64,000 nucleotides of DNA, from assembly GCA_021792365.1 (NCBI GenBank), contig JAJYUT010000007.1:62001-126000 (forward strand). Direction: 5' to 3'. The notes under the pieces were generated by a model. It worked only from the letters and a program-made list of their open reading frames with translations, ran no database searches and had not been told where the DNA came from. Positions 34,881 to 61,704 of this stretch are shown here, piece by piece. This DNA is from Pseudomonadota bacterium (lineage in GTDB: Bacteria; Pseudomonadota; Alphaproteobacteria; Dongiales; Dongiaceae). The translations under genes were made by a program, and so were the position numbers. Position 1 is the stretch's first letter, and each line of letters begins with the position of its first letter.

Positions 34881-34892
34881 AAAATCGTTTTA
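34881..34892. promoter_or_regulatory. Degenerate copy of the putative LacI operator
   Basis: AAAATCGTTTTA matches TAAATCGATTTA at 10 of 12 positions. It lies between the 2-hydroxyacid dehydrogenase stop and the lacI-type gene, suitable for internal autoregulation. Confidence 0.4.
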
Positions 34893-34909
34893 GCGCGCCA
34901 TTCCGCATC

Positions 34910-35938
34910 TCATGTGATGGAAACCGGCATGGAGCGCAGGCGCCTGGCGATTGCCGGGTCGGCGCGCCGGCACATGACCGGCGGCAGGCCACGCAGGATC
35001 AACTCGGCATCCGCCACCGTCATGCGCCCGATCTGGTGTAGCGCTTCCGGCATGCCGCCGGTGCGATGGGCGGAGAGGATGGCGCCCTCCAGCTTGCGCA
35101 CCGGATGGTCGGCGGGCACCGGCTCTTCGGGGAATACGTCCATCGCCGCCTTGATGCGGCCGCTCTCCACCTGACGCATCAGCGCGGGGAAATCGACCAC
35201 CGCGGCGCGGCTCATCAGCAGAAAAGCGGCGCCCGGCTGGATCAGATCGAGTTCGCGCTCGCCCAGGAAGCCCTGGTTCTCCGTCGTGACGCTGGCGAAC
35301 ACGAAGATGATGCGCGCGCCGGACAGCACCTCGTGCAGGCTTCCGGGCTTGCAGTCATGCGCACGGATGACCTCCTCCGGCAGCCACGGATCGTGGACCG
35401 TGACGGGATTGCGGAAGGGCGTCAGCAGCGTGCGCAAGGTGCGGCCAAGATCGCCGAAGCCGATGATGCCGACCGGCGCGCCCGCGAACAGGAAGCAACC
35501 CGCGTTCGCTTCGAGGCCATAGGCTTCACCCCCGGCGCGGAAGGCGCGGTCCGCGGCCGTGATGCCGCGCACCAGGTCGATCGCCATGGCGAGCGCGGAT
35601 TCCGCCACCGCCTGCGCGAAAGCGGAGGTCGGGCTCAGCACCCAGATGCCGCGCGCCTGGCAATGCTCGTAGTCAACATTGGGCAGGAAGTTGGTCTCGA
35701 CGTTGAAGATCGCCTTGAGGTTCGGCGCGCGATCGATGCGCGCCCTGGGCATCGCCGTCTGGCCGATCAGGATCGCGGCCTCCGGCAGCAGGCGGTCCAC
35801 CATCTCGTCGGGCATGGGCTCGTCTTCCGACACGACGAGATGCCCCAGCGCCTCGAGACGCCGGCGGATGTCGGGCTCGCAGATGACATCCAGCGTCCGC
35901 GGCAGCGGATCGACGAGAATGAGCGGCCGATCGGCCAT
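34910..35938 (-). CDS. D-isomer-specific 2-hydroxyacid dehydrogenase family protein
   Basis: A 342-residue protein starting at ATG 35938 after GGGAGGGAGAAC. Blocks: FNVETNFLPNVDYEHC, GIWVLSPTSAFAQAVAE, the NAD motif VGIIGFGDLGRTL (a GxGxxG form), LMSRAAVVDFPAL with the position normally holding catalytic Arg, DVFPEEPVP with the Glu, and LSAHRTGG with the His. It should reduce or oxidise a 2-keto/2-hydroxy acid with NAD(P). It is the first gene of the minus-strand operon and directly behind the TAAATCGATTTA palindrome. Confidence 0.87.
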   Translation of the reverse strand: MADRPLILVDPLPRTLDVICEPDIRRRLEALGHLVVSEDEPMPDEMVDRLLPEAAILIGQTAMPRARIDRAPNLKAIFNVETNFLPNVDYEHCQARGIWVLSPTSAFAQAVAESALAMAIDLVRGITAADRAFRAGGEAYGLEANAGCFLFAGAPVGIIGFGDLGRTLRTLLTPFRNPVTVHDPWLPEEVIRAHDCKPGSLHEVLSGARIIFVFASVTTENQGFLGERELDLIQPGAAFLLMSRAAVVDFPALMRQVESGRIKAAMDVFPEEPVPADHPVRKLEGAILSAHRTGGMPEALHQIGRMTVADAELILRGLPPVMCRRADPAIARRLRSMPVSIT

Positions 35939-36003
35939 GTTCTCCCTCCCTCCCCGAAGCCGTCCCTTGTACCGGAACGTGCCTCGCTTTCCGACTTTAG
36001 CGT

Positions 36004-36015
36004 TAAATCGATTTA
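36004..36015. promoter_or_regulatory. Putative LacI operator before the minus-strand operon
   Basis: TAAATCGATTTA is a perfect 12-bp palindrome in the 254-bp divergent gap between the 2-hydroxyacid dehydrogenase and the subtilisin-like gene. The same 12 bases followed by GAG recur at 61693-61704. Confidence 0.65.
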
Positions 36016-36192
36016 GAGACAAGGCGACGTCGCGGCGACAACCGCGAACGGCAACAATGTGAGGCCCTCCGTGACTGGGACGTGACGTCACGCGGAAGTC
36101 GCCGTTGCAAGAGGAACCGGCGCGGCGACGCAACTCTTTTCACGCTTGTCTGCGGCCGGGGCTCAAGGCCGCCCACTTGGCGGTGAAAGCAC

Positions 36193-37398
36193 GTGGTCAC
36201 CGGGTTACGGATCACCTTCGCGGTCCTTCTGACAGCCATTGCGGTGATCTGCCAACCGGCCGCAGCAGGCCGGATCGGCGATGGTGAACCGGACCGAATC
36301 CTGATCGCGGATCCATCTCCCGCGCTTGTTCGATCTTTATCCGGCAAAGGCTTCAGAACGGAGAGCACGGAGCGCCTGGAGGCGCTCAATCTTTCTCTGA
36401 CGATCGTCTTGCCGCCGCGCCAGGTTTCGGCAGCGCGCGCGATCCGTGACCTCGAATCGGCCTTTCCCGACGCGCTCATGGCCTTGGATGATCCGTTCCG
36501 TCCGGCGGATGACGGGCAGAGCCGGCGGAGCGAAGGGCCGGCGCACGACGTCCTGAGCGCGATCGACTGGCCCCCGGATGACAGCGCCGCGGGTGCCGGC
36601 ATGCGCGTCGGCATCATCGATAGCGCACTCGATTCCGCGCATCCGGCGCTTCGGAATGCCAGCATCGTGGAGCGAAGCTTCACATCGGGGAAGGCGCCGG
36701 CGACCGATACGGCGCACGGCACCGCGATCGCTTCCATGCTGGTCGGCGACTCGAATGATCGGTCGGTATCCGGCCTGTTGCGCGGTGCGCATCTGCATTA
36801 CGCGAGCATTTTCCAGATTAGCGGGCGGGGCGCGAAGGCGAGCAGCGCGGACTTCCTGCGCGCTATCGACTGGATGCTAAAATCCGGCGTTACTGTCATC
36901 AACGCCAGCATCACCTCGCCGAACAGGAACCCTGTCGTCCTCTATGCGATGTCGATGCTCGAGCACAAGCAGGCGATCGTCGTTGCGGCAGCGGGCAATG
37001 GCGGTCCCTCGGCTCCGCCGGTCTATCCGGCCGCCATCGATTCCGCTTTCGCGGTGACGGCGGTGTCGACCGAAGGCTATGCCTATCCCTATGCCAATGT
37101 TGGCGCCTACATCGACATTTCCGCGCCGGGCATCGACTTGCCGACCACATCTCGCAAAGTCACCTCCGGCACGTCTCTCGCCGTACCGTTCGTGACGGCC
37201 GCGGTCGCGCGCATGGTGCATCTGTGCGGCCTGTCACCGAAAGCCGCCCAGTCCAATCTGCAAGCCCATGCCCGCGATCTCGGCGCGCGCGGCTGGGACT
37301 CGCATTTCGGATGGGGCCTGTTGCAAGCGCCGCGTTGCGACGCACACGCCGGGCGGGCCCTCGACGCCGGCGCCGGTCCACGCCCGCCGGCCCACTAG
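36193..37398 (+). CDS. Secreted S8 (subtilisin-like) serine protease
   Basis: A 401-residue protein starting at GTG 36193. Residues 1-25 are a Sec signal peptide ending QPAAAG. The subtilisin catalytic triad is complete: Asp143 (GIIDSALD), His175 (AHGTAIASML), Ser328 (SGTSLAVP), with Asn269 (AAAGNGG) for the oxyanion hole. Residues about 26-125 form a short N-terminal domain that may be an inhibitory propeptide. The C-terminus ends in a Pro/Ala tail. No substrate is suggested by the neighbours (an LacI-linked operon and an AraC gene). Confidence 0.9.
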   Translation: MVTGLRITFAVLLTAIAVICQPAAAGRIGDGEPDRILIADPSPALVRSLSGKGFRTESTERLEALNLSLTIVLPPRQVSAARAIRDLESAFPDALMALDDPFRPADDGQSRRSEGPAHDVLSAIDWPPDDSAAGAGMRVGIIDSALDSAHPALRNASIVERSFTSGKAPATDTAHGTAIASMLVGDSNDRSVSGLLRGAHLHYASIFQISGRGAKASSADFLRAIDWMLKSGVTVINASITSPNRNPVVLYAMSMLEHKQAIVVAAAGNGGPSAPPVYPAAIDSAFAVTAVSTEGYAYPYANVGAYIDISAPGIDLPTTSRKVTSGTSLAVPFVTAAVARMVHLCGLSPKAAQSNLQAHARDLGARGWDSHFGWGLLQAPRCDAHAGRALDAGAGPRPPAH

Positions 37399-37424
37399 AT
37401 GCGCGGCGCGTTGCGACAAAGCGA

Positions 37425-37452
37425 GGCGCCAAGCCGGAGTCCCCGTGGCGCC
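37425..37452. terminator. Hairpin between the convergent protease and AraC genes
   Basis: GGCGCCA (37425-37431) pairs with TGGCGCC (37446-37452), a 7-bp perfect stem with a 14-nt loop and no T tract. Confidence 0.4.
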
Positions 37453-37456
37453 GGGT

Positions 37457-38236
37457 CTAATCGTGCGCGGCGACATATTCGCTCGGCGGCATGCCGAGCG
37501 CCTTCTTGAACATGGTGGTGAAGGCGGCCGGGCTCTCATAGCCAAGGTCGAGCGCAACGCGCGTGATGGATTCGCGCGCGACCAGCCGGGGCAGGGCGGC
37601 GAATACACAGGCCTGGCGCTGCCAGGCGGCGAAACTCATGCCTGTCTCGCGCTTGAACAGCCGCGTGAAGGAGCGGCGGCTGAGGCCGAGATTTTCCGCC
37701 CAATCGTCGATCGTCTCATGCGGGCTCGGATCCTTGATGTATCGGCGGCAGCGCCGCGCCAGCTCGCGATCAATGGGAAAGGGTAGCGAAAGCGGCAGGA
37801 TCGGCAGCCTCAGCAACTCCTGCAGCATCAGCGCGACGACCAGCCCGTCGCGCCCCTCGACCTCGTATTCGAGCGGGAGGTCGACAGCAGCGAGCAGCAG
37901 GGCGCGCATGAGCGGCGAAATCCCGAGGACGCTGCAGGAGGGCGGCATGCCCGCGATCGCCTCCGGACGGATGAAGATGCTGCTGGTGGTGACCGGCCCG
38001 ACGGTGCGCACGCTGTGCTGCACGCCGACCGGTATCCACACCGCCTGTGCCGGCGGGACGACCCAGGCGCCATGCTCCGTCCAGACCATCATGACGCCGC
38101 TGGCGCCATAGAGCAGTTGATAGCGGCCGTGATGATGCGGCGCCACCTCGAAGTCCGGCGGATAATCGTTGCCGACCGCCACGACCGGACGCGGCGTCGC
38201 CTCGTACAGCATCGACGGGCCGACATTCTTGACCAT
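37457..38236 (-). CDS. AraC-family regulator
   Basis: A 259-residue protein. Residues about 15-110 form a cupin-like sensor (PHHHGRYQLLYGASG, VVPPAQAVWIPVGVQHSV). Residues about 165-255 are the double helix-turn-helix (IDDWAENLGLSRRSFTRLFK and ITRVALDLGYESPAAFTTMF). The start is ATG 38236. It is divergent from an MFS efflux gene with only a short gap, so it probably activates or represses that pump. Confidence 0.9.
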   Translation of the reverse strand: MVKNVGPSMLYEATPRPVVAVGNDYPPDFEVAPHHHGRYQLLYGASGVMMVWTEHGAWVVPPAQAVWIPVGVQHSVRTVGPVTTSSIFIRPEAIAGMPPSCSVLGISPLMRALLLAAVDLPLEYEVEGRDGLVVALMLQELLRLPILPLSLPFPIDRELARRCRRYIKDPSPHETIDDWAENLGLSRRSFTRLFKRETGMSFAAWQRQACVFAALPRLVARESITRVALDLGYESPAAFTTMFKKALGMPPSEYVAAHD

Positions 38237-38344
38237 GGCAAATTCTGTCTGGCCTGCTCGCGAAAGTAAATGGCCCAGTTTCGCAAGCAGGCTGAACGGC
38301 GGCTCCGTATCCTGGCCACCCTGACGACACCGAGCGAGCAACCC

Positions 38345-39577
38345 GTGAGCAATACCAGTCTGGCGGCCGGCCATCATTCCGACGACAAGGCAGCGGAAAG
38401 GACGGCGCTGGCCATCCTGGTCGCGATCAGCTTCTGCCACATGGTCAACGACACCACGCAGTCGCTGCTGCTGTCGATCTACCCGATGCTGAAGGATAGT
38501 TACGCGCTGGACTTCAGCCAGATTGGCATCATCACGCTGACGTTTCAGGTGACCGCCTCGCTGCTGCAACCGGTGATCGGGATGTATACCGACCGCCATC
38601 CGCAACCATACGCGCTTGCAGTCGGGATGGCCTCGACGCTGCTTGGCCTGCTGCTGCTCTCCAACGCGACGAGCTATCCGATGCTGCTGGTGGCATCGGC
38701 GATGATCGGGACGGGATCGTCGGTGTTCCATCCGGAGGCATCGCGGGTCGCGCGGCTGGCGTCGGGCGGCCGGCACGGCCTCGCGCAGTCCTTGTTCCAG
38801 GTCGGCGGCAATATCGGATCGGCGATCGGCCCGCTGGCCGCCGCCTATATCGTGCTGCCGCGCGGGCAGGGCGCCGTCGCCTGGTTCTCCATCGTGGCGT
38901 TGATCGCGATCCTGGTGCTGGTGCGGGTCGGCGTCTGGTATGGCGCCCATCTGGTGGCGCGCGCGGACCAGGGGCAGCGCCGGGTCTCCCTCAACCCCCT
39001 ATCCCGGCGTCAAGTCGGCGTCGCGCTGGCGGTGCTGTTGGGCCTGATCTTCTCCAAGTTCTTCTACACCGCGAGCCTCAGCAGCTACTACACGTTCTAC
39101 ATGATCGAGCATTTCGGCGTTTCGGTGCAGCGCGCGCAGATCTATCTCTTCATCTACCTCGCGGCCTTCTCGCTGGGCACGCTGGCCGGCGGACCCATCG
39201 GCGACAGGATCGGGCGCAAGAAAGTCATCTGGTTCTCGATCCTGGGCGCGCTGCCGTTCACGCTGCTCCTGCCCCACGTCAACGAGGTCTGGGTGGTATT
39301 GCTGACGATCCCGATCGGCCTCATCCTTTCTTCGGCTTTCTCTGCGATCGTGGTCTATGCGCAGGAGTTGATGCCGGGCCGCGTCGGCATGGTGGCCGGC
39401 CTGTTCTTCGGCCTCGCGTTCGGCATGGGCGGTATTGGCGCCGCCGTGCTCGGCGAGCTTGCCGATCTCACCAGCGTGGAACTGGTGTTCCAGCTATGTG
39501 CCTTCCTGCCGGCGATCGGCCTCGTCGCTTGGCTGCTGCCGAACTTGGAAGCCTCCTCGGCGCGCAGCAAGGCCTAA
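38345..39577 (+). CDS. MFS efflux transporter, fosmidomycin-resistance (Fsr) type
   Basis: A 410-residue twelve-helix MFS protein if it starts at GTG 38345; ATG 38270 would add 25 basic residues and leave only 33 bp to the divergent AraC gene. Fsr-type features: FCHMVNDTTQSLLLSIYPMLK, IGMYTDRHPQPYALAVGM, and GTGSSVFHPEASRVARLASG. The second half carries GPIGDRIGRKK, an MFS loop motif. Members export fosmidomycin or other small molecules. Its regulation is probably by the neighbouring AraC protein. Confidence 0.88.
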   Translation: MSNTSLAAGHHSDDKAAERTALAILVAISFCHMVNDTTQSLLLSIYPMLKDSYALDFSQIGIITLTFQVTASLLQPVIGMYTDRHPQPYALAVGMASTLLGLLLLSNATSYPMLLVASAMIGTGSSVFHPEASRVARLASGGRHGLAQSLFQVGGNIGSAIGPLAAAYIVLPRGQGAVAWFSIVALIAILVLVRVGVWYGAHLVARADQGQRRVSLNPLSRRQVGVALAVLLGLIFSKFFYTASLSSYYTFYMIEHFGVSVQRAQIYLFIYLAAFSLGTLAGGPIGDRIGRKKVIWFSILGALPFTLLLPHVNEVWVVLLTIPIGLILSSAFSAIVVYAQELMPGRVGMVAGLFFGLAFGMGGIGAAVLGELADLTSVELVFQLCAFLPAIGLVAWLLPNLEASSARSKA

Positions 39578-39926
39578 GATCGCAGCCCAGGCGATCGTGC
39601 GGGAACCAGGAGCGCTTTCGCGCCTTGTTACCCGTCGGTCCGGCGGGGCGGATCGGTGCACGGAGCTGTGACTTTTTAGTGTCAACTCGTTGACGTGCCG
39701 CACGCGTTTCGCGGCTTGCCTACAATCCGCCGTATTGCGGATGGAGAGTCTGCCGCGGCACGGCGGCGGCATTTCGCTTTGTTGTCAAGTGATCACCGCT
39801 CTTGGCTTTGATCCCGGTGGACAATGCGTGGCGGCAGGATATGGCGTCGGACGTAGGATAGTCACAGTGCAGAGAGAGCGATCGCCGGAAGACACCGGAC
39901 AGCTTACCGGTGGGCAACCAGCAGGG
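39578..39926 (+). other. 349-bp non-coding gap before the exopolysaccharide cluster
   Basis: No convincing gene. It contains GTCAAC-TC-GTTGAC (39681-39694), a perfect 6-bp inverted repeat, and TGTGACTTTTTAGTGTCA (39667-39684), which matches 15 of 18 bases at 49476-49493. It is probably the promoter/operator region of the glycosyltransferase and co-polymerase genes. Confidence 0.5.
39667..39684 (+). promoter_or_regulatory. Shared 18-bp motif upstream of exopolysaccharide genes, copy 1
   Basis: TGTGACTTTTTAGTGTCA lies 243 bases before the glycosyltransferase start at 39927. It shares 15 of 18 positions with the copy at 49476-49493. It may be a regulator site; it is not a CRP-type TGTGA/TCACA palindrome. 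Confidence 0.4.
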
Positions 39927-41045
39927 ATGGGGAGGACTCGGGTTTGCGTGGTCGGGTTGCGCGGCATCCCCGGCGTCATGGGCGGGATCGAATCGCATTG
40001 CGAGCAGGTGTTTCCCCGCCTGAAGGCGCTCGCGCGGCACTACGACATCACCATCATCGGGCGGAAGCCATACATCCCGCGCGGCGCCTATGAATATCAG
40101 GGCGTCAACGTGGTCCCGCTGCCCGCAATCAGGAACAAGTACCTCGAGGCCATCAGCAACACCGCCCTGGCGGTGCTGTACGCGCGCTTTTTCCTGCGCG
40201 CGGAGATACTCCACATTCACGGCATCGGTCCGGCTCTGCTCGGCCCGCTGGCGCGCGTCCTGGGCATGAAGCTGGTGGTCACACATCACGGGCAGGATTT
40301 CGAGCGGCAGAAATGGAACGTAATGGCCAAGGCGGTTCTGCGCCTCGGCGAGCTGTGCGCAACCGTGGCGGCGCACCGCATGATCGTCGTGTCCAAGTCC
40401 GTGACCGAGAAGTTGCACCAGCGCAATCCGCGGCTGCGCGGCCGCATCGACTACATTCCCAACGGCGCGACCGAGTTTGCCGAGATCGAGGCGGCGCAGG
40501 ACGAGCAATCCATCCTGGCCGGGTTCGGGCTGGAGCGGCATCGCTACATCCTGGGGGTCGGCAGGCTGGTTCCGGAAAAGGGCTTTCACCACCTGGTCGC
40601 GGCCTTCGAGAAGGCGGATCCGCCGTACAAGCTCGTGATCGCCGGGTCGGCCGATCACGAGGACGACTATTCCCGCTCGCTCTTGCGCCAGGCCAGCGAG
40701 CGCATCCGTTTCTGCGGGTTCCAGCCGCACGATGTGCTGCGCATCCTCTATCGCAACGCGGCCTTGTTCGTCCTGCCGTCGAGCCATGAAGGCCTGCCGA
40801 TCGCGGCGCTGGAGGCGGCCAATCTCGGGATCCCGGTGCTGCTGAGCGACATCCGCCCGAACCGCGACATCGAGCTCGCGCCGACCAACTACTTCCCGGC
40901 GGGCGACCTCGACGCCCTGCAAAGGAAGCTGCTGGCGAACTATGAGACGTTCCGCGTCGACCGCGATGCGATCGCCAGCCGGTTCAACTGGGGGCGCGTG
41001 AGCGAGGCGACCCGGCAGGTCTATGCCGCCCTGGCGGGTGCGTGA
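39927..41045 (+). CDS. Glycosyltransferase, GT4 family with DUF1972-like N-terminus
   Basis: A 372-residue protein from ATG 39927 (the frame is open upstream but without family similarity). It opens VCVVGLRGIPGVMGGIESHC, as in DUF1972-type rhamnosyl/mannosyl transferases; the donor half has YILGVGRLVPEKGFHHL and PSSHEGLPIAALEAA with the E-x7-E motif of retaining GT4 enzymes. It should add one sugar to the lipid-linked repeat unit on the cytoplasmic face. It is followed by the co-polymerase gene on the same strand. Confidence 0.88.
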   Translation: MGRTRVCVVGLRGIPGVMGGIESHCEQVFPRLKALARHYDITIIGRKPYIPRGAYEYQGVNVVPLPAIRNKYLEAISNTALAVLYARFFLRAEILHIHGIGPALLGPLARVLGMKLVVTHHGQDFERQKWNVMAKAVLRLGELCATVAAHRMIVVSKSVTEKLHQRNPRLRGRIDYIPNGATEFAEIEAAQDEQSILAGFGLERHRYILGVGRLVPEKGFHHLVAAFEKADPPYKLVIAGSADHEDDYSRSLLRQASERIRFCGFQPHDVLRILYRNAALFVLPSSHEGLPIAALEAANLGIPVLLSDIRPNRDIELAPTNYFPAGDLDALQRKLLANYETFRVDRDAIASRFNWGRVSEATRQVYAALAGA

Positions 41046-41101
41046 AGGCGGGCGGCAAGGCCCGGCCGGACTGGTGAGACGGAATGCAACAAGGATAGCG
41101 C

Positions 41102-42823
41102 ATGAGCAATGCAGCAAACACGAACCACGATGACCGGCTGATCAATATCGACGTGCTCGGTGCGTTGCGGCGGCGCAAGTGGATCGGCCTCGTGGTCGGC
41201 GTGCTGGGCGTTGCCGCCGCGTTCACGGTCAGCAAGATGTGGCCTTCGACCTATCAATCGACCGCGACGATCCTGATTGAGGAGCCGGACGTCCCGGCCG
41301 ATCTCGTCAAGTCGACAGTCTCGACCTACGCCCAGGAACGGCTGCAGGTCATCCAGCAGCGGGTGATGACAAGCCAGAATCTCGAGGAGATCATCCGGGA
41401 GTTCAACCTCTATCCGGAAGAGCAGGCGGCCATGCCGCATTCGGCGCTCATCAACAAGATGCGCTCGAACGTCGAGCTCGCGGTTGTGAGCGCGAACATC
41501 TCCGGCCAGCCGCAGCAGCAGAGGTCGCGCCCGCAGCCGCAGGCCTCCATCGCCTTCACCTTGTCGTTCGCCAGCGAAAACCCCAAGCTCGCAGAGCAGG
41601 TCGCCAACCGCCTGACCGACCTCTACCTCGCCGAGAACGAGCGGACTCGGCAGGAGAAGGCCGCCGGCACAACCCAGTTCCTGGGCGAGCAGGCGAAGAA
41701 GCTGTACGCCGAGGTGCAGACGCTCGAGAAACGGCTGCTCGACCTGCGCTCCAAGCACAACGGCAGCCTGCCCGAGCAATTCAGCATGAACACCCAGTTG
41801 CTGAACCAGGCGCAGGCGCAGCTCATGCAGAACCGGGCCGACTTGCAGATCCTGACGGACAAGAGGTCGTATCTGCAGAGCCAGCTCGGCACGATGAGCC
41901 CCTATACGCCCATGACCGAAGGTGGCCGTCCGGCGACACCCCAGGCCCAGCTCATGTCGCTGGAGCTGCAACACACGGACCTCTCCGGCCGCTACGGGCC
42001 GAAGCATCCGGATGTCGTCCGGCTGCAACGCCAGATCGAGGTGCTGAAAACCCAGATCGGCGGAGTTGACAGCACCGCGCTGGACCAGGCGCGATACGGC
42101 GCCCTGCAGAGCGAGCTGAACGACGCCCTTCAGCGCTATGGCGAGAAGCATCCGGACGTGGTGCGCCTGCAGCGCCAGCTCGAGGAACTGCGCACGCAGA
42201 TGAATGCCGCGCCCCCGCCGAGCCTGACTCGGCCTTCGGGCCCGCCGGACAATCCCATGTACCTGCAGGTGCAGAACCAGCTGGCCGACGTGGAGTCCCA
42301 GATCCGCGGCCTCAACGAGCGCTCCGTCGCGCTCGAGACCAACATCCAGGACCTGCAGCAGCGCATCCTGCAGACTCCCACGGTGGAGGCGGAGTACAGC
42401 TCGCTGCAGAACCAGCACCGGGTCGCGTTGGAGCGCTATCAGAGCTTCAAGGACAAGGAAGCGGACGCCCAGGTGGCGGAGACCATGGAGCAGCAGAGCA
42501 AGGGCGAGACGTTCTCGGTGATCGAGCCGCCGCAATACCCCGACGTGCCATCGGGTCCGAACCGCAGGCTCCTCCTGCTGGCCGGTATTTTCCTGACGGC
42601 GATGCTGGCCGCGGGTGCCATGGTCGCGATCGACCTGTTGGATCCGCGCGTCTACGAGCCCAGGGGCCTCATGGTGGCGTTCGGGGAGATGCCGCTCGCG
42701 ACGGTGCCCTATATCCGCACCAGCGACGAGATGCGGGGCCGGCGCATGCGCATGATCGGTGTCGCCAGCGTGGCGGTCATCGTGATGGCCGGCCTCCTGG
42801 CGTTCGGCTTCCCGATGTTCTAG
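41102..42823 (+). CDS. Polysaccharide co-polymerase (Wzz/GumC/ExoP-N type chain-length determinant)
   Basis: A 573-residue inner-membrane protein: helix 1 about 27-46 (GLVVGVLGVAAAFTVSK), a periplasmic domain about 50-485 with long coiled coils, helix 2 about 490-512 and a third helix at the very C-terminus (about 551-573), which is unusual for Wzz proteins. The segment before helix 2 holds the Pro-rich motif EPPQYPDVPSGPN. Within the coiled coil, KHPDVVRLQRQ occurs twice, 48 residues apart. No kinase domain is fused; the kinase-like gene at 45296 is the likely partner. It governs chain length and export of the exopolysaccharide. Confidence 0.9.
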   Translation: MSNAANTNHDDRLINIDVLGALRRRKWIGLVVGVLGVAAAFTVSKMWPSTYQSTATILIEEPDVPADLVKSTVSTYAQERLQVIQQRVMTSQNLEEIIREFNLYPEEQAAMPHSALINKMRSNVELAVVSANISGQPQQQRSRPQPQASIAFTLSFASENPKLAEQVANRLTDLYLAENERTRQEKAAGTTQFLGEQAKKLYAEVQTLEKRLLDLRSKHNGSLPEQFSMNTQLLNQAQAQLMQNRADLQILTDKRSYLQSQLGTMSPYTPMTEGGRPATPQAQLMSLELQHTDLSGRYGPKHPDVVRLQRQIEVLKTQIGGVDSTALDQARYGALQSELNDALQRYGEKHPDVVRLQRQLEELRTQMNAAPPPSLTRPSGPPDNPMYLQVQNQLADVESQIRGLNERSVALETNIQDLQQRILQTPTVEAEYSSLQNQHRVALERYQSFKDKEADAQVAETMEQQSKGETFSVIEPPQYPDVPSGPNRRLLLLAGIFLTAMLAAGAMVAIDLLDPRVYEPRGLMVAFGEMPLATVPYIRTSDEMRGRRMRMIGVASVAVIVMAGLLAFGFPMF

Positions 42824-42828
42824 CCCGC

Positions 42829-42852
42829 GCCATCGGCGGTCGCCGCCGTGGC
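42829..42852. terminator. Hairpin between convergent co-polymerase and beta-helix genes
   Basis: GCCA-T-CGGCGG (42829-42839) pairs with CCGCCG-TGGC (42843-42852) with one bulged T and a 3-nt loop. It lies in the 41-bp gap of two convergent genes. Confidence 0.45.
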
Positions 42853-42864
42853 ATGGCGGTACGC

Positions 42865-44331: not shown

Positions 44332-44448
44332 TGCGGATAGCCCTTGGGCGAGAGAACCCTGTGATGGGCGACCGCCGGATGTCCAACAACAACTCCGTGG
44401 CTCGGCGAGGGTTGCGGTCGCAGTGACGCGGCTTGTTGACGCCGCTGA

Positions 44449-44814
44449 TTAAGCCGGTCCGATGCCGCTGCGCCGGAGCATGGCAACCACGCTACAAGCC
44501 AGGGCCGCCCCGGCGATGTTGGCCAGAGCGTCCAAGACGTCCGGCGACCTGCCGGGCGAGAAGCCCTGGAGCATCTCGATCGCCGTCCCAAAGACCGAGA
44601 CCCCAATCATGGTGCGCAGCACGCCGCGCCGAGACGTTGTGCATCCGAGCAGGGCAAGGAGCGCATAAGCGACCGCGTGCTCTACCTTGTCACTAATGGG
44701 CGCAGCCGGCAGCGCGGCGGCGGGCGCGAGAGACAGAACGCCGACCGCAGCGCTCGCGAGATAGAACGCACCGCGCAACAACGGTCGGGTCAGCCGTGGC
44801 ATATCGTTTCTCAT
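44449..44814 (-). CDS. VanZ-like small membrane protein
   Basis: A 121-residue protein with three to four helices: ARNs such as LASAAVGVLSLAP at the start, DKVEHAVAYALLALLG with the conserved His, and FGTAIEMLQGFSPGRSPDVLDALANIAGAALA, the VanZ core with conserved E, Q and D-x2-D-x3-N residues. VanZ proteins are found beside exopolysaccharide and exosortase genes; their function there is not known. The frame begins MRNDMPRL after AGGTGAACCC. Confidence 0.82.
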   Translation of the reverse strand: MRNDMPRLTRPLLRGAFYLASAAVGVLSLAPAAALPAAPISDKVEHAVAYALLALLGCTTSRRGVLRTMIGVSVFGTAIEMLQGFSPGRSPDVLDALANIAGAALACSVVAMLRRSGIGPA

Positions 44815-46075: not shown

Positions 46076-46126
46076 GCGCACTGGCGGCCATCAATATCGC
46101 CAGGGAAGACTGCCAGGAAAGGCCGA

Positions 46127-53372: not shown

Positions 53373-53603
53373 GGGATGACCATATATAGTTCGGAGAGCG
53401 TTGTGCTGCATGGTGACAATTTGAGAACATGCCAACATGCTGCGCGCCGTTGTCACCGGTGGTTTCGTTGAACCGCGTGTATGCGCGTGTTAGCTCTTGT
53501 CACCCTCGAACATGGCAAATCCCGGAGCGTGATATTGGCAGGCGATCTCTCGACCTCGGCCCGTTCCCTGCCGACGGATTCCTCCGAAGCGCGATCCGAC
53601 GCG

Positions 53604-54758: not shown

Positions 54759-54790
54759 GCGGGCACCATGGACGCGCATCAGCCGTCCGC

Positions 54791-56014
54791 TCAGAAGCCG
54801 CTGCCGGCCCAGGTCGGGAAATTGTATTGCAGCGTCAGGAACACCGCGTTCGAGGACGCGGATTCATCGTCATCCTCGAACAGGCGATACCGGAATCGGT
54901 ACTGCGCCTCCAGGCTCCAGTCTTCCGTCAGCTGCCAGGCGATCGCCGGCCGCACCGACGTATAGCGTGAATCGCCGTCCTCGTCGGAGGTTTCGCTTTG
55001 TTCGCCCAGGACGTCGACATTGTCGGCATAATCGAGGTTGAGCCGGGCCGTGGTGAGCGGCGTCAATCTGTGGTCGAGCCCGATGGTCACCCGGTTGCGG
55101 ACGACCTGGTCGCCGTCGCCAGACGGCTCGGTGTCATGGGACAGCGACGCCCGCGCCGAGGTCTGGTCGCTCATCACATAGCGCATGTTGAACTTGACGC
55201 GATAGCCGAGCTCTTCACTGTCCCGGCCGGGTTCCTCGTGGCGCATGGAATAGGCGAGACCGACGCCGCCGCCGATGGTGAAGAGCTCGGACGGGGTATA
55301 GGTGTATCCGACCAGCGTGTTGATCGTATCGGTGTAATCGTCGCCCGGTCGATCGGGAATGAACCGGGTGGCGCCAATCGTGAAGCTGACCCGCTCGAGC
55401 TCGTTGAGCTGCCGGTTGTAGTCGATGGCCGGGCCCAAATACTGGTAGTCGGTCTTTTCGTCGGTGTGGTAGTTCACGTTGCGGTAATCGCCGCGCACCA
55501 CGATCTGGTCCACCGGCGACAGGAGGTAGGACCAGCCCGGCTCGACGTCCCATCGCACGAAGCGGAAGGAATCGTCCAGGAACCGGCCGGTGATGTCCTG
55601 CTCGTTCTTGAGCGTGGTGTCGCGGGTGAAGCTGGCGTCGAGTTCGAGCGCGCTGCGCTCGCTGAGCGCCTTGTCGATCGCGAGATCCAGGAACTGGTCC
55701 TGGGAATTGAATTCCGAATGGTTCAGGTATTCGGCAAATTCGAACCGCCCATCCAGCGCAATCTGCGACGTCGGCGAGTTCCGCACCAGGCGCAAGGCCG
55801 GTGTCGTGATGAAGCCGACGGTTTCGATATCGCGACTCCGGCTCAGCAGCAGGTTGTCGCTATAGAGCACCTGCTGGGAGATGTTGGCGTCGAGCCTCCA
55901 CTCCTGGGCGGAAGCGTCGTTCCACCCAGCGCAGAAACCCGCAGCCACGATCGCCCCCAGTACGGTACGAATTTCAGTTGTCCCCGAGCGTTTCAGGCGC
56001 TTCCCCCATTGCAT
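54791..56014 (-). CDS. Outer-membrane beta-barrel protein of the exopolysaccharide export system
   Basis: A 407-residue protein with a signal peptide ending NDASAQ (about residue 37) and then alternating polar/hydrophobic strands throughout (DANISQQVLYSDNLLLSRSR, ALELDASFTRDTTLKN, VTIGLDHRLTPLTTARLNLD). It ends in Phe, as outer-membrane barrels do. Sixteen or so strands seem possible. It resembles barrel proteins encoded beside exosortase-type exopolysaccharide genes. It starts 7 bases after the Wza-like gene stop, so they form one operon; it may be the outer-membrane exit or an accessory. Confidence 0.8.
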   Translation of the reverse strand: MQWGKRLKRSGTTEIRTVLGAIVAAGFCAGWNDASAQEWRLDANISQQVLYSDNLLLSRSRDIETVGFITTPALRLVRNSPTSQIALDGRFEFAEYLNHSEFNSQDQFLDLAIDKALSERSALELDASFTRDTTLKNEQDITGRFLDDSFRFVRWDVEPGWSYLLSPVDQIVVRGDYRNVNYHTDEKTDYQYLGPAIDYNRQLNELERVSFTIGATRFIPDRPGDDYTDTINTLVGYTYTPSELFTIGGGVGLAYSMRHEEPGRDSEELGYRVKFNMRYVMSDQTSARASLSHDTEPSGDGDQVVRNRVTIGLDHRLTPLTTARLNLDYADNVDVLGEQSETSDEDGDSRYTSVRPAIAWQLTEDWSLEAQYRFRYRLFEDDDESASSNAVFLTLQYNFPTWAGSGF

Positions 56015-56021
56015 GAACGAT

Positions 56022-56669
56022 CTAGAACAGGCCCGCCTGCGGCACTACGACCACGTCACCGCCTTGGAGCACGATGTTCTTGTCGAGATTTTCCCCATCC
56101 TCGATTTCCGAGTAGTCGAACAGAATTGCCGTCTGTGTTCCGCCATGATCTCGCCGGAGAATCTTGATGTCGTCCTTGCTTGCGAACGGCGTCAGGCCCC
56201 CGGCAAGGCTCAATGCCTGCATCACGTCCAGTTGCGTATCATAAGCGAAAGTTCCCGGTTGCTCCACTTGTCCGACGACCGAGACGGAATTGCCGGTCGC
56301 CTTGACCATGGAAACCGTGACCTCGTTGTCCGTCAGATTTGGAAAATACTGACTTTCCCGTAGGTTAGTGGCAATTCTTTGCTGCAGTTCCTGGAGGGTC
56401 ATGCCGCGTGCATTGAGGTTCCCGACCAGGGGGAAGGCAACGCCGCCATCCGGTTGCACCGGCACGTCCTTGTCCAGATTGGGCTCCCCGTAGACCGAAA
56501 TGTGCAGCACGTCACCGCCATTGATGCGGTATCCCGCGTCCTGGGTCATGGAGTCGGGGGCGACCTGTGGGACGGCCTCCTGGGCGACGCCGGCGCCCGC
56601 GCCGATCACCGCCGCGGCGGCAAGGGAAAGCATGGTTTGCGAGAGAGAACGGAGCATCGAGGTCCTCAT
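56022..56669 (-). CDS. Polysaccharide export protein, Wza/GumB-like
   Basis: A 215-residue protein with a Sec signal (about 1-29, ending GVAQ), a poly-export domain (YRINGGDVLHISVYGEPNLD, PDGGVAFPLVGNLNARGMTL) and one SLBB domain (VSVVGQVEQPGTFAYD, LSLAGGLTPFAS). There is no Cys, hence no lipobox: it is not lipidated, unlike Wza. It lacks the C-terminal membrane helix of Wza and is shorter, as GumB-type proteins are. It should pair with the co-polymerase and the adjacent barrel to pass polymer across the envelope. Confidence 0.88.
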   Translation of the reverse strand: MRTSMLRSLSQTMLSLAAAAVIGAGAGVAQEAVPQVAPDSMTQDAGYRINGGDVLHISVYGEPNLDKDVPVQPDGGVAFPLVGNLNARGMTLQELQQRIATNLRESQYFPNLTDNEVTVSMVKATGNSVSVVGQVEQPGTFAYDTQLDVMQALSLAGGLTPFASKDDIKILRRDHGGTQTAILFDYSEIEDGENLDKNIVLQGGDVVVVPQAGLF

Positions 56670-56779
56670 CGTCAGTCAGTTGCCAGCCAAACGAACTGGG
56701 ACGACGCGAAACGGGACAGGGGTGCCGTTTGTTCCCGACACAAGGAATTTTATTACGCTACCTGTGCGGGTAGGGGCCA

Positions 56780-57778
56780 TCATACCGCAACTGAGAAAAC
56801 ATTGCTACGGTGCCACCGGACGGCCGACTCGACGATGCTCTCAATGTCGCTCCGGGTGGCGACCCAGCCGAGATCGCGCTCCGCCAGCCCCGGCGCCGCG
56901 AACAGGCGGGGCGGATCGCCGGCTCGGCGCGGTGCCTCCACGACCGGCACCGTGGTGCCGAGCACGCGCTCGACGGCGCGAATGACCTGGCGGACCGAGA
57001 CGGGATTGCCGGTGCCAAGGTTGTAGGCCCGGCTGCCGCCGGTCGTTTCGAGGAAGGCGAGGGCCTGGATGTGAGCCTCCGCCAGATCCTCGACATGGAC
57101 GTAGTCGCGCTCGCAGGTTCCATCCGCGGTCGGATAGTCGCTGCCGAAGACATTGAGCGGCCGGCGGGGATCAAGTGCGGCCTGGATGGCGAGCGGGACG
57201 AGGTGAGTCTCGGTCGTGTGCGCTTCGCCGATATTGCCGTCGCCGTCGGCACCTGCCGCATTGAAATAGCGCAGCATGACCGTGCGGATAGCGCCGGTCG
57301 CTGCCGTGTCAGCCAGGAAGTTCTCCACCGCCAGCTTGGTGCGGCCGTAGACGTTGATCGGCCGGGCGAATTCGGTCTCCTCGATCGGCAGCCGGTCCGG
57401 CATGCCGTAGATCGCGCAGGTGCTGGAGAAGACGATGCGCGACACGCCGCAGCGGCGCATGGCCGCGACCAGCGAAATCGCTCCTCCCACATTGTTGTCG
57501 TAATATTCGTATGGCTTTGCGGCGGACTCGCCGACCAGCGAAAGAGCGGCAAAGTGGAGGACGGCCGCCGTCTTGTGCCGGGTCATCGCCTCCGCGACGA
57601 AATCCGCGTCGCGCACGTCGCCGATCTCCAGCGGCCCCCATTGAACCGCCTGCCGATGGCCGGTCGAGAGGTTGTCCAGCGTGACTGGGGTAAAGCCGGA
57701 TCGATGCAGGGCCTTGCACACGTGGCTGCCGACATAGCCGGCGCCGCCGGTCACCAGGACGGTCGGTTGCTTGGTCAT
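56780..57778 (-). CDS. galE: UDP-glucose 4-epimerase
   Basis: A 332-residue extended SDR: NAD motif TGGAGYVGSH (10-19), active-site SST (118-120) and Tyr144/Lys148 in VYGRTK, plus the GalE blocks YFNAAGAD and YVHVEDLAEAH. It interconverts UDP-glucose and UDP-galactose. The setting next to exporter and glycosyltransferase genes means it supplies UDP-galactose for the polymer. ATG 57778 is used. Confidence 0.92.
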   Translation of the reverse strand: MTKQPTVLVTGGAGYVGSHVCKALHRSGFTPVTLDNLSTGHRQAVQWGPLEIGDVRDADFVAEAMTRHKTAAVLHFAALSLVGESAAKPYEYYDNNVGGAISLVAAMRRCGVSRIVFSSTCAIYGMPDRLPIEETEFARPINVYGRTKLAVENFLADTAATGAIRTVMLRYFNAAGADGDGNIGEAHTTETHLVPLAIQAALDPRRPLNVFGSDYPTADGTCERDYVHVEDLAEAHIQALAFLETTGGSRAYNLGTGNPVSVRQVIRAVERVLGTTVPVVEAPRRAGDPPRLFAAPGLAERDLGWVATRSDIESIVESAVRWHRSNVFSVAV

Positions 57779-58553
57779 GGGAAGTCCTTTCCGCTGTGCC
57801 TGACAAGCCCCGAGCGCCGCGGCGGGCCTCTCCTCTGGAGGCCGCCGGACCTGTCGCCGCATCTGGTCGCGATCTGCGCTGCAGCGCATGCCGCGACGAG
57901 AACGGTGTCGGACTCATCCATGCCACGTGGATTGCCGAAGCGTCAACGCGCGAAGCCGCCGCTCGGGGGCAACTGTTGCAGAACCGCACGCGCGCTTCGA
58001 TTTTCCGCCGTCACCAGCCACGCCGGGAACTTTTCGACCGGCCAAAAATTGGTGTCCGCACGTGAAGCTGAGGGCCAACGGGGGGTGATCCGGGCGGCCA
58101 TGCACACGGGCTTGTCGCGCGTTTCTCACAGATTTGTCGGAGTCCTGGAATGCGCCTTGGAGTAAGAATAGCGGCACGCGGTTCTATTGCGTTGCATCAA
58201 ATTGAGCTAGGCGAGCGTCGAAGGGCAGCTGTCGCAAAAACCGGAAGAAGAGCATTTCGGGCTTCCTCCGGAGACGCAGAACGGATGAACGGCCACGGTT
58301 CTGTCGCAGGTCGCTACGGCTTTGTATGCGGCGGCCCAACGTAAACCGAATAGGGAAAAGAAGCTCTCGAACGCTGTTGCCTTGTGACAACTCGGCACGA
58401 GCATGCACGAGACGGTGCGACGTGGCCGGGAGTGAAGGTGCCGGCTTGGCGCCCCAGAACGTTCAATAGCGGTGAAGAGCTGATAAAAAGCCGAAAGCTA
58501 CTGTCTGGTGGGAGACGGAGTGAACTGTTCGGGGGAGGGAAACAGGTGGCGTC
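57779..58553 (+). other. 775-bp gap without a recognisable gene
   Basis: This is the longest non-coding stretch of the window. Short frames in it have no family features. It is less GC-rich in its second half (about 58130-58550), consistent with promoter and 5-prime leader of the phosphoglycosyl transferase gene, and with regulation of the divergent galE gene. No strong palindrome or terminator was found by eye. Confidence 0.5.
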
Positions 58554-60089
58554 ATGCTTCAAATGCGCACTGCGGCCAGGATGCGTCCTCACGCGGTGGA
58601 CTCCTCGGAGCTGAGTTCCTTCCGGACACAAACCCCCGCACGCAGGCACTATCTTCCCCGCGATCCGCGGCTGGGCGGCTTTCTTCTGGCGCTCTGCGAT
58701 CTAGCCGTGTTCACCACGGTGATGGTGTTGATCGCAATGCTGTTCGTGCCGGGCGGGGCGGCGTTCTTCTCCACCTCATGGCCGCATTTCGCGGTCACTG
58801 GCGTGCTGAGCTTTCTGGTCGCGCATTCCCTGGCGGGGTCCTACGATCTCACCGGGGCGGCGCACGCGTCGCTGTTCGATTTCGTGGTCAAGCCGGCCAT
58901 CCTCACCTGCCTGGCGACCACCTTCAGTTATGTAGTGGAGGCCTGGCTCGGCCAGAGCGCTGCGAAAGGCGCCTTCGCGTTCAGCCTCGGGCAACTCTCG
59001 CCGGAGCACTACGTGATCGTGTTCGGCACTCTCGCCATAGCGGGCGAGCGGCTGCTGGGCTATGGCCTGCTCAACCGCTGGCAGGCGGCCGGTCATCTCG
59101 CGACAAGCGTCGTGGTGTTCGGCGCCGACGCGATTGGCCAGCGCCTGGTCAAGGTCGTGCGCGAGGAATACGCGGACAAGGTCGATATCGTCGGCATCTT
59201 CGATGACCGTGCCCAGCGTGCCCCGGCGAAGGTCCATGGCATTCCCGTCGAAGGCGGGATCGACGCGCTGATCGAGTTCGTGAAGTCCGCGCCCGCAGTC
59301 GACAAGGTGCTGGTCGCCCTGCCGATGAGCGCGGAAGGCCGGATCCTGCAGCTCCTCACCAGGCTGCGGAGCTTGGCGGTCGACGTCGCATTGGTGCCCG
59401 ATTTCGTCGGCATGCGCCTGGAGCGGCAGTTCGTGCGGGACGGCGAACCGCCGTTGCTGCGCGTGCTGCGCAAGCCGCAATCGGAATTCGAGTGGTTCCT
59501 GAAGCGCAGCTTCGACTTCGTCACCGCGCTGGCTCTCCTGATCATGCTCTCGCCACTGCTCGCGTTGACGGCTCTTGCCATCAGGCTGGACAGCCCCGGC
59601 CCGATTCTGTTCCGCCAACCCAGGCTTGGCCTGAACAACAAGGAGTTCAACGTCCTCAAATTCCGCTCCATGTATGTCGAGCAATCCGACTTGGCCGCGC
59701 GCGAGCAGACCAGGCGCAACGACGCGCGGGTGACGCGAATCGGCGCATGGCTGCGCCGGCTCAGCATCGACGAGCTGCCGCAGCTGTTCAACGTGCTGGC
59801 TGGGGACATGTCCCTGGTCGGGCCGCGCCCGCATGCCCTCGGCATGCAGGTGAACGACAGGTTGTGCGACGAGATCGTGCGCGAATATGCGGTGCGCCAT
59901 CGCATGCGGCCCGGGATCACCGGCTGGGCGCAGGTGCGCGGGCTGCGGGGCGCGGTCGACGAACCCGCGCTGCTGGAAGCGCGCGTCAATCACGATCTCT
60001 ATTATATCGACAACTGGTCGTTCCTGTTCGATTTGCGTATTCTCATCATGACCGTGATCGAGCTGATAAGGCCGCGCAATGCGTTCTGA
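58554..60089 (+). CDS. Undecaprenyl-phosphate sugar-1-phosphate transferase (polyprenyl phosphoglycosyl transferase)
   Basis: A 511-residue WbaP/WcaJ-type protein. Four to five helices lie in residues about 40-165, then a CoA-binding-3/Rossmann-like domain (VVVFGADAIGQRLVKVV, about 187-300), a re-entrant helix (FDFVTALALLIMLSPLLALT), and the catalytic C-terminal domain with FRQPRLGLNNKEFNVLKFRS, RRLSIDELPQLFNVL (the catalytic D-E), and VGPRPH. It starts each repeat unit by moving a sugar phosphate to undecaprenyl phosphate. The start ATG 58554 follows AGGTGG. Confidence 0.92.
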   Translation: MLQMRTAARMRPHAVDSSELSSFRTQTPARRHYLPRDPRLGGFLLALCDLAVFTTVMVLIAMLFVPGGAAFFSTSWPHFAVTGVLSFLVAHSLAGSYDLTGAAHASLFDFVVKPAILTCLATTFSYVVEAWLGQSAAKGAFAFSLGQLSPEHYVIVFGTLAIAGERLLGYGLLNRWQAAGHLATSVVVFGADAIGQRLVKVVREEYADKVDIVGIFDDRAQRAPAKVHGIPVEGGIDALIEFVKSAPAVDKVLVALPMSAEGRILQLLTRLRSLAVDVALVPDFVGMRLERQFVRDGEPPLLRVLRKPQSEFEWFLKRSFDFVTALALLIMLSPLLALTALAIRLDSPGPILFRQPRLGLNNKEFNVLKFRSMYVEQSDLAAREQTRRNDARVTRIGAWLRRLSIDELPQLFNVLAGDMSLVGPRPHALGMQVNDRLCDEIVREYAVRHRMRPGITGWAQVRGLRGAVDEPALLEARVNHDLYYIDNWSFLFDLRILIMTVIELIRPRNAF

Positions 60090-60246
60090 CCGCCATTTGT
60101 CTCTCCATGCATGACCCGTAATCCTCGGCTGTCTCCCGCCGCACGTCACAAGGCCGGCCCACGAATCTTGCGCGCCGGCGCCCGCCTCGGAGTCATCGCA
60201 ACGGACGCCCCGGTCGGGCGCCGCCACATATAATAAGGAGTCCCAG

Positions 60247-61614
60247 ATGAAGATTGCCGTCGTTGGCAGCGGGTATGTCGGCCTGGTTTCCGGCGCCTGC
60301 TTCTCCGAGTTCGGGTTCGAGGTGGTCTGCGTCGACCAGGATGCGACCAAGATCGCGCAGCTTAATGACGGCAAGATCCCGATCTACGAGCCGGAGCTGG
60401 ACACGCTGGTGAAGAACAATGTCGCCCGCAGGCGGCTCTTTTTCACCACTGACCTGAGCGCCGCGATGGCCGGCGCGTCCGCGGTTTTCATCGCGGTCGG
60501 CACGCCGAGCCGCCGCGGCGACGGGCACGCGGACCTCAGCTATGTCTATGCTGCGGCCAAGAGCATCGCACACGAGATTCGCGGCTATACCGTCATTGTC
60601 ACGAAGTCGACCGTTCCGGTGGGCACCGGCCGCGAGGTCGCGAAGATCATCCGCGAGACCAACCCGAACGCCGATTTCGACGTGGTGTCCAACCCCGAGT
60701 TCCTGCGCGAAGGCTCCGCGATCGGCGACTTCATGCGGCCCGATCGCGTTGTCATCGGCTGCGAATCGGACCGGGCGCGGGACATCATGCGCCAGCTCTA
60801 CCGGCCGCTGTTCCTGATCGAGACTCCGATCCTGTTCACCAATCTCGAGACGTCGGAGCTCACCAAATACGCCGCCAACGCCTTCCTGGCGATGAAGATC
60901 TCCTACATCAACCAGCTCTCCGACCTGTGCGACCAGGTCGGGGCCGACGTGCACGATGTCGCGCGCGGCATCGGCCTCGATGGGCGTATCGGCCCCAAGT
61001 TCCTGCATCCGGGCCCGGGCTATGGCGGCTCCTGCTTCCCGAAGGATACGCTTGCGCTGGTGAAAACCGCGCGGGATGCCGGGGCGCCGATCTCGCTGAT
61101 CGAGACGACGGTGGCGTTCAACGATACACGCAAGCGCCAGATGGTCGAGCGGATCGTGGCGGCATCCGGCGGAACGGTCGCCGGCAAAACAATCGGCGTG
61201 CTCGGCCTCACCTTCAAGCCAAACACGGACGATATGCGGGACGCGCCGAGCCTGGTCATCCTGCCGGAACTGGTGAAGCGCGGCGCGAAGGTGCAGGCGC
61301 ATGATCCGGTCGGCGTGGAGGAGGCGAAGAAGCTCATGCCGGATCTCGGCTATTGCGAGGACGCCTATGATGCGGTCACGGGCGCGGACGTGCTGGTCAT
61401 CCTGACCGAATGGAACTCCTACCGGGCGCTCGACCTCAAGCGCATCAAGACGTTGATGAGGGCGGCCAACATTGTCGACCTGCGCAACATCTACCGGCCC
61501 GATGAACTGGCGCAGCTGGGCTATCGCTACGCGAGTCTCGGGCGGCCCCAGCCCGCGCAGGCCGAACCTGCGGTGATCGATCTGGCCGCAGCACGCGAGG
61601 CCGCGGCACGCTGA
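60247..61614 (+). CDS. ugd: UDP-glucose 6-dehydrogenase
   Basis: A 455-residue protein: NAD motif GSGYVG (7-12), EFLREGSAIGDF (151-162), Lys207/Asn211 in LTKYAANAF, and catalytic Cys263 in GPGYGGSCFPKDT. It makes UDP-glucuronic acid from UDP-glucose. The start follows AAGGAG. With GalE and the pyruvyl transferase this predicts an acidic exopolysaccharide containing galactose and/or glucuronic acid; that is inference. An Ala/Glu-rich tail of about 25 residues extends past the family end. Confidence 0.94.
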   Translation: MKIAVVGSGYVGLVSGACFSEFGFEVVCVDQDATKIAQLNDGKIPIYEPELDTLVKNNVARRRLFFTTDLSAAMAGASAVFIAVGTPSRRGDGHADLSYVYAAAKSIAHEIRGYTVIVTKSTVPVGTGREVAKIIRETNPNADFDVVSNPEFLREGSAIGDFMRPDRVVIGCESDRARDIMRQLYRPLFLIETPILFTNLETSELTKYAANAFLAMKISYINQLSDLCDQVGADVHDVARGIGLDGRIGPKFLHPGPGYGGSCFPKDTLALVKTARDAGAPISLIETTVAFNDTRKRQMVERIVAASGGTVAGKTIGVLGLTFKPNTDDMRDAPSLVILPELVKRGAKVQAHDPVGVEEAKKLMPDLGYCEDAYDAVTGADVLVILTEWNSYRALDLKRIKTLMRAANIVDLRNIYRPDELAQLGYRYASLGRPQPAQAEPAVIDLAAAREAAAR

Positions 61615-61648
61615 GCCGCCGTCTTTCCACAGTCCCGGAAAGGGCTTA

Positions 61649-61665
61649 GACGGGCGTTGCCCGTC
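61649..61665 (+). terminator. Hairpin after ugd
   Basis: GACGGGC and GCCCGTC form a perfect 7-bp stem with loop GTT, 35 bases after the ugd stop. No T run follows. Confidence 0.45.
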
Positions 61666-61692
61666 CGGATTGACCCGACGTGGCCGGTCTTG

Positions 61693-61704
61693 TAAATCGA
61701 TTTA
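61693..61704. promoter_or_regulatory. Putative LacI operator before the epimerase gene
   Basis: TAAATCGATTTA, followed by GAG, is identical to the palindrome at 36004-36015 before the LacI-containing operon. It lies 103 bases upstream of the gene at 61807. Confidence 0.6.

Follow-up and report, generated by a model that had tools for sequence, protein, structure and literature searches.

PsiR, a LacI-family repressor that responds to D-psicose in Rhizobiales (available text of PMC7445875), belongs to the nearest named system to the regulon described here, and LacI-family regulators have published motifs of 16-22 nt (available text of PMC4052901). We analyzed a 64,000-nt stretch (the window) of a genome of the soil bacterium Dongia (5.43 Mb in 30 contigs), in which a 12-bp palindrome, TAAATCGATTTA, stands before an operon for a D-2-hydroxyacid dehydrogenase, a LacI-type regulator and a sugar importer, and again before a ketose 3-epimerase gene. 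The best explanation of the sequence comparisons, at a probability of roughly 0.78, is a local LacI-family regulon in Dongia with two operons and a common palindrome. One LacI-type repressor very probably co-controls the importer operon and the distant epimerase through this palindrome.

The Dongia locus resembles the PsiR regulon (PMC7445875, available text) in having a LacI-type regulator and a sugar-gene operon, and candidate loci of that system carry an importer and a ketose 3-epimerase. It differs in that the Dongia epimerase gene lies 25.7 kb away, the distance between the two full sites, and in that a 2-hydroxyacid dehydrogenase leads the operon. Like the LacI-family local sugar regulons, it has a CG-centred even palindrome 65-102 bp before the gene starts, two operons and a site before lacI; the Dongia operator letters are absent from the available main text of that source (PMC4052901). 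The open-access literature yielded no report of a regulon of this kind in Dongia or of a Dongia D-allulose 3-epimerase, and no paper joining at least three of allulose, LacI, ketose 3-epimerase and regulon. The candidate sites and the genes of the two operons are as follows.

36004..36015, no strand: candidate operator 1, TAAATCGATTTA, exact match, 65 bp before the dehydrogenase start (dehydrogenase-lacI-importer operon)
61693..61704, no strand: candidate operator 2, TAAATCGATTTA, exact match, 102 bp before the epimerase start
34881..34892, no strand: candidate secondary operator, AAAATCGTTTTA, 10 of 12 letters matching, in the gap between the dehydrogenase gene and lacI
34910..35938, - strand: D-2-hydroxyacid dehydrogenase, 342 amino acids, first gene of the operon (Pfam 2-Hacid_dh_C, 111 bits; ATG start assigned by reading)
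33779..34873, - strand: LacI-family regulator, 364 amino acids (Pfam LacI helix-turn-helix and Peripla_BP; an alternative start at 34840, giving 353 amino acids, is possible)
32780..33757, - strand: periplasmic sugar-binding protein, D-allose-binding-protein-like (NCBIfam D-allose-binding model, 213 bits; cut-off 335)
31723..32712, - strand: sugar ATP-binding cassette (ABC) permease of the ribose/arabinose/allose type (Pfam BPD_transp_2, 139.6 bits; NCBIfam ribose permease, 280.6 bits, cut-off 398)
30986..31726, - strand: sugar ABC ATPase, single-domain, 246 amino acids (Pfam ABC_tran once; matches about positions 1-247 of models of about 500 residues)
61807..62697, + strand: ketose 3-epimerase of the L-ribulose/D-allulose group, 296 amino acids (NCBIfam psicose epimerase, 185 bits; cut-off 300)
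62768..63994, + strand: CitMHS-family permease (Pfam CitMHS, 174 bits), 70 bp after the epimerase gene

The original prediction, made from the window alone, had placed two exact copies of the palindrome and a 10-of-12 copy at these positions, the full sites preceding the importer operon and the epimerase gene; all three were found, with the spacings measured above. Its remark that GAG follows the full sites is literally so on the + strand. It has little meaning, since the two genes lie on opposite strands and the GAG is not conserved in Dongia deserti. The three sites are the only window matches to TAAATCGATTTA with at most two mismatches; shuffled windows gave a mean of 0.37 such matches, and three or more in 1 of 100 shuffles. 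Across the whole genome there are 2 exact copies, both in the window, and 19 copies with two mismatches; one-mismatch copies are absent. Under a first-order Markov model of the window composition (66% GC), 0.013 exact copies are expected per 5.43 Mb. A palindrome frequent in the genome, the finding that was to count against the original prediction, was thus not what the search returned.

The conservation of the sites was examined in 16 other genomes of the family, with E ≤ 1e-60 as the threshold for a LacI orthologue. D. deserti, of the same genus, has exactly 2 exact copies of TAAATCGATTTA, before the same two genes (dehydrogenase and epimerase), and its LacI and epimerase orthologues are 89 and 91% identical. 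In non-coding alignments of the two species all three sites are identical at 12 of 12 positions, the columns outside being identical at 139 of 237 (59%) for operator 1, 93 of 167 (56%) for operator 2 and 16 of 44 (36%) for the secondary operator. Each site is, or falls within, the longest invariant run of its non-coding region. A LacI orthologue was found in 2 of the 16 genomes, D. deserti (89%) and a member of another genus, G014 (69%); exact sites occur only in D. deserti, and none was found in the 14 family genomes without a LacI orthologue, one of which is only 68% complete. G014 carries TAAATCGATTTC, with one mismatch, 62 bp before the called dehydrogenase start, with lacI next. Before orthologous genes with an orthologous regulator, conservation therefore stands at three of three sites in D. 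deserti and one one-mismatch site in G014. Five genomes of a further genus have an epimerase orthologue (70-74%) and no LacI orthologue, and the best match in the 300 bp upstream of their epimerase is 7 of 12.

The five genes of the operon follow one another in the order dehydrogenase, lacI, binding protein, permease and ATPase at intervals of 36, 21, 67 and -4 bp; lacI is thus its second gene. The regulator has both a helix-turn-helix and an effector domain (PF00356, 54.9 bits, cut-off 27; PF00532, 92.4; PF13377, 89.9). The secondary operator in front of its gene possibly serves autoregulation or as a second binding site. Sinorhizobium meliloti Ak57 and S. medicae have an orthologous dehydrogenase (62-64%) near an orthologous LacI (about 55%). 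Their operators, GAAAATCGTTTTTC and GAAAAACGTTTTTC, are CG-centred with the general form GAAAA(A/T)CGTTTTTC, and the core lies 32-36 bp before the dehydrogenase. The S. medicae site is the same in all three records read (of twelve listed), and S. meliloti Ak57 has a second copy before a match to the binding protein. The S. meliloti importer looks damaged, since that match is split over two frames and the permease match is on the opposite strand. The secondary site of the window, AAAATCGTTTTA, equals the S. meliloti core AAAATCGTTTTT at 11 of 12 letters, and it is the only match in the window to the Sinorhizobium 14-mer GAAAAACGTTTTTC at three or fewer mismatches. No such palindrome was found at the dehydrogenases of Aureimonas and Rhizobium T1473, which no LacI of this type adjoins. 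By rarity, phylogenetic footprint, co-occurrence with LacI and the Sinorhizobium operators, the claim that one LacI regulator joins the importer operon to the distant epimerase has held up, and a local LacI-type regulon predicted to comprise the dehydrogenase, lacI, the importer, the epimerase and perhaps the CitMHS-family permease is well supported.

Promoter-like boxes were read by eye around the two full sites.

35994..36022, - strand: putative dehydrogenase promoter, TTGTCT (-35-like), 17 nt with the operator inside, TAAAGT (-10-like)
61670..61698, + strand: putative epimerase promoter, in which the conserved TTGACC is followed after 17 nt by the left half of the operator at the -10 position

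The 12-mer of the dehydrogenase operator is flanked, in both Dongia species, S. meliloti and S. medicae, by a TTG-type -35-like box starting 6-7 nt ahead of it and a -10-like box starting 4 nt behind it; the operator thus fills the spacer. Upstream of the epimerase, CCGGATTGACCC is the second-longest run invariant with D. deserti, and TAAATC at the operator is a weak -10 box. From the computed sites, their rarity, conservation and co-occurrence, and the protein families, we infer binding, repression, inducer and direction of control as follows. A LacI dimer would bind the CG-centred TAAATCGATTTA inside the two promoters 25.7 kb apart. In the absence of inducer it would block RNA polymerase, because the operator lies between the -35 and -10 boxes of the dehydrogenase promoter and, at the epimerase promoter, covers the -10 region; occlusion of this kind is suggested by the site positions and by the LacI family. 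One repressed unit would be the operon that encodes the regulator itself (from the D-2-hydroxyacid dehydrogenase gene through lacI and the binding-protein and permease genes to that of the ATPase) and the other the ketose 3-epimerase, possibly together with the CitMHS-type permease that follows. LacI would be released by a sugar or a metabolite of it, and import and C3-epimerisation would thereby be induced together. A further perfect 12-bp palindrome, CGTGACGTCACG (36081-36092), lies upstream of the dehydrogenase operator; CGTGACGTCAC there is invariant in D. deserti, and a second regulator may therefore act upstream of the dehydrogenase.

Several observations weigh against this regulon. Copies of TAAATCGATTTA with at most two mismatches are near background, at 21 vs. 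12 for the reversed pattern in this genome, 22 vs. 25 in D. deserti and 21 vs. 15 in G014, so that only the exact copies stand out by number. The symmetry common to both sites spans the 12-bp core only, vs. the 16-22 nt of published motifs. A match with at most one mismatch is present in 11 of the 16 family genomes and hence not specific, which makes the G014 site alone weak evidence. The full arrangement occurs in two genomes only, both of one genus; G014 has the dehydrogenase-lacI pair without an orthologous binding protein (E ≤ 1e-50) or epimerase (E ≤ 1e-40), and the epimerase therefore looks like a later addition to the regulon. G014 also lacks the -35-like box, and a strict promoter and terminator scan found no promoter at either site of the window, so promoter occlusion rests on weak boxes.

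Reading the two-mismatch sites with their surroundings (18 of 19 in this genome and 19 of 20 in D. deserti, the one left out in each being the lacI-proximal copy already counted) gave no further conserved target, as only two region pairs align and the site lies inside a called coding region in both. Three of the 20 further sites of G014 with at most two mismatches were read: one lies 53 bp before a PCMT-type methyltransferase gene, one 99 bp before a gene for a HlyD-like protein, and the third has no called gene start within 300 bp. On G014 contig C24, another LacI domain has a two-mismatch copy (54849-54860) some 230 bp upstream.

The closest solved chain to the dehydrogenase is 4hy3; the motif GFGDLG is present, as are the Arg/Glu/His positions of the family. 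D-2-hydroxyacid dehydrogenases act on 2-keto or 2-hydroxy acids. The best-scoring solved chains for the binding protein are named allose-binding, and its identity to the Escherichia coli D-allose-binding protein ALBP is 36%. The ALBP pocket residues K9, N13, F15, W16, D91 and N145 correspond to identical residues K36, N40, F42, W43, D118 and N172; neighbouring positions differ (N89D, E92A and K93N), and the comparison covered part of the pocket. The ATPase matches positions 5-243 of the 510 of the AlsA model and does not have the double-length form of AlsA. A single-domain ATPase here serves an importer whose closest family models are double-length. Compared with the E. coli als system, the Dongia locus is similar in its allose-binding-protein-like component and related permease. 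It differs in having no kinase or phosphosugar epimerase in the operon, a single-domain ATPase, and a LacI- rather than RpiR-type regulator. Against AlsBAC importers in general, the Dongia binding protein falls under the curated D-allose cut-off (213 vs. 335 bits).

The epimerase matched solved chains 5zfs, 8yeb and 7cj9 best (phmmer), with AgDAE, MetLRE and MlLRE as nearest enzymes. It falls in the same sequence group as these three (PMC8167858, available text), and its metal ligands E147, D180, H206 and E241 correspond to E146, D179, H205 and E240 of AgDAE, with the Glu/His/Arg contacts also kept. Its score is under the cut-off of the NCBIfam D-psicose 3-epimerase model (185 vs. 300 bits), and its activity is a predicted one. 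MetLRE prefers L-ribulose, followed by D-ribulose and D-allulose, and acts also on D-fructose (PMC8167858, available text), and for this reason the group name does not fix the substrate of the Dongia enzyme. A sugar importer adjoins the epimerase relative (33-65%) in all eight plasmid loci read, and a kinase in 4 of the 7 that are annotated. The link of importer and epimerase is thus a known theme, which appears here at a distance. No kinase is present in the two operons. The CitMHS-family permease, possibly an organic-acid transporter, directly follows the epimerase in both Dongia species, with a 74-bp gap in D. deserti, and it is possibly co-transcribed with the epimerase as a member of the regulon.

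The original prediction went on to a pathway of import, epimerisation and reduction of a sugar like allose or psicose. The regulatory link stands and such a substrate is plausible. The reduction step found no support: the dehydrogenase is of the D-2-hydroxyacid type and not a ketose reductase. Our leading, and tentative, candidate for the substrate is an allose- or allulose-like hexose; the pathway could instead take a ketopentose (L-ribulose, for example) or run through sugar acids. The substrate is uncertain because both binding protein and epimerase score below their family cut-offs. It is also not obvious where a 2-hydroxyacid dehydrogenase would fit on the way from allulose to fructose.

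The strongest alternative keeps the regulon and changes its purpose. In it, the regulon would serve a sugar-acid or 2-keto-acid route with the dehydrogenase as its core, and the epimerase and importer would act on a sugar other than allose or psicose. Conservation reaches furthest for the dehydrogenase-lacI pair, which G014 and S. medicae have with no adjacent orthologous importer or epimerase. Among named models the dehydrogenase comes nearest to those for phosphoglycerate dehydrogenases and glyoxylate reductase, with scores well under every cut-off, a 2-ketogluconate reductase is among its solved relatives, and a CitMHS-family permease stands behind the epimerase. However, the six compared ALBP residues are kept and point to a neutral hexose, and the epimerase has the four metal ligands of free-ketose epimerases. 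We consider this alternative a serious one, at something short of even odds. Rather unlikely, though worth stating, is that an old alphaproteobacterial dehydrogenase-LacI regulon captured the epimerase, and perhaps the CitMHS permease, in Dongia through a new perfect operator 25.7 kb away, giving an uncharacterised rare-sugar route without a kinase in the two operons. If so, import, C3-epimerisation and the D-2-hydroxyacid dehydrogenase would act together.

A different regulator might bind the palindrome, the lacI gene being merely a neighbour, and this genome does contain five LacI-domain matches besides the regulator (six in all). Within the family, however, exact sites are confined to the two genomes with a close LacI, and the related Sinorhizobium LacI genes accompany related CG-centred palindromes. 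The recognition helix reads VAPATVSNVL in Dongia, D. deserti and G014 and VAPGTVSNVL in Sinorhizobium. Five genomes yielded 40 other LacI domains, of which 27 were read; the helix was seen in none of these 27, and none of the five others of this genome has it. We regard binding by another regulator as improbable.

It is more improbable still that this LacI is the PsiR orthologue and the locus the known psicose regulon, in spite of the shared family and the D-psicose response of PsiR. The candidate psiR loci in S. meliloti Ak57 and A. larrymoorei, picked by the published layout only (LacI divergent from an importer-epimerase operon), carry another palindrome, GCACCATCGATTGTGC. Their LacI proteins are 22% (S. 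meliloti) and 29% over 174 amino acids (A. larrymoorei, a fragment) identical to the Dongia protein, and the same S. meliloti strain has a 54-55% LacI near its dehydrogenase. Judged against these layout-based candidates, the different operator and the low identity make it improbable that the Dongia LacI is orthologous to PsiR, although its role may be similar. The letters of PsiO were not found in the available text of PMC7445875, PMC13042381 and PMC9687117.

The least probable reading, that the palindrome recurs by chance or is an AT-rich, generally promoter-like motif to which no specific regulator belongs, draws on the background level of two-mismatch copies and on repeated 12-bp palindromes not being rare as a class (five perfect ones in the window; simulations gave a mean of 1.84, and at least one in 87 of 100), and it fails against two exact copies where 0.013 are expected, the copies at the same two places only in D. 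deserti, invariant amid a 36-59% background, and TAAATCGATTTA being the sole repeated one with both copies outside called genes.

Outside the predicted regulon, the window holds a further gene behind the importer.

30055..30897, - strand: DkgA-like aldo-keto reductase (NCBIfam DkgA, 365.6 bits; cut-off 425), 88 bp after the ATPase gene

This reductase had been counted as part of the operon. In D. deserti four genes of an ABC importer on the other strand (L026, 3724-8554) lie between the ATPase and the aldo-keto reductases and cut it off, so its membership of the regulon is doubtful. A second aldo-keto reductase (29065-30044, - strand) is split by a frameshift, either a sequencing error or recent decay, its two frames matching an intact 326-amino-acid D. 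deserti protein at 91 and 97%. Adjoining the operon, 20944-29007 is a separate sugar-importer cluster with a binding protein nearest RhaS (below cut-off), two permeases, a double-length ATPase, a DeoR-type regulator and an aldolase/short-chain dehydrogenase fusion. In the profile search at least 3 of 10 open reading frames in one batch and 1 of 10 in another were wrong-strand, non-coding and without a family; in the first batch 4 of 10 had no family in all.

The contig search for LacI relatives returned R-7 (G014), D. deserti and 11 actinobacterial proteins (Streptomyces and Wenjunlia) at 29-32%. No LacI relatives were found in viral contigs, and plasmids gave no match to the binding protein at 1e-60. 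Among 385 genomes of the class (the order of G055 being represented by one genome), only the window's own genome and one with a 38% relative matched LacI at 1e-64. Dehydrogenase relatives (37-56%) occur at seven places in six other genomes of the 385; four of the seven loci were read, and a transporter ATPase adjoins the relative in three (L051, L052 and L056). L052 and L056 contain near-matches to the palindrome, two with two mismatches and one with one. Both belong to a small-genome alphaproteobacterium (G176) whose dehydrogenase relatives are 38-40% identical, and the L052 ATPase is 49% identical to that of the window. L051 (G361) has a similar layout, with the ATPase (32%) beside the dehydrogenase relative.

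The predicted regulon is new in Dongia, and it is a sound and fairly ordinary LacI-type case. It connects an importer with an epimerase whose association would be missed from annotation alone, and supplies an exact operator to test. Its LacI is possibly responsive to an industrially interesting rare sugar, namely allulose, L-ribulose or a relative. The locus also lets the growth of a regulon be followed: Sinorhizobium shares the dehydrogenase-lacI pair, and of the loci read, only those of the two Dongia genomes had the operator in front of the epimerase.

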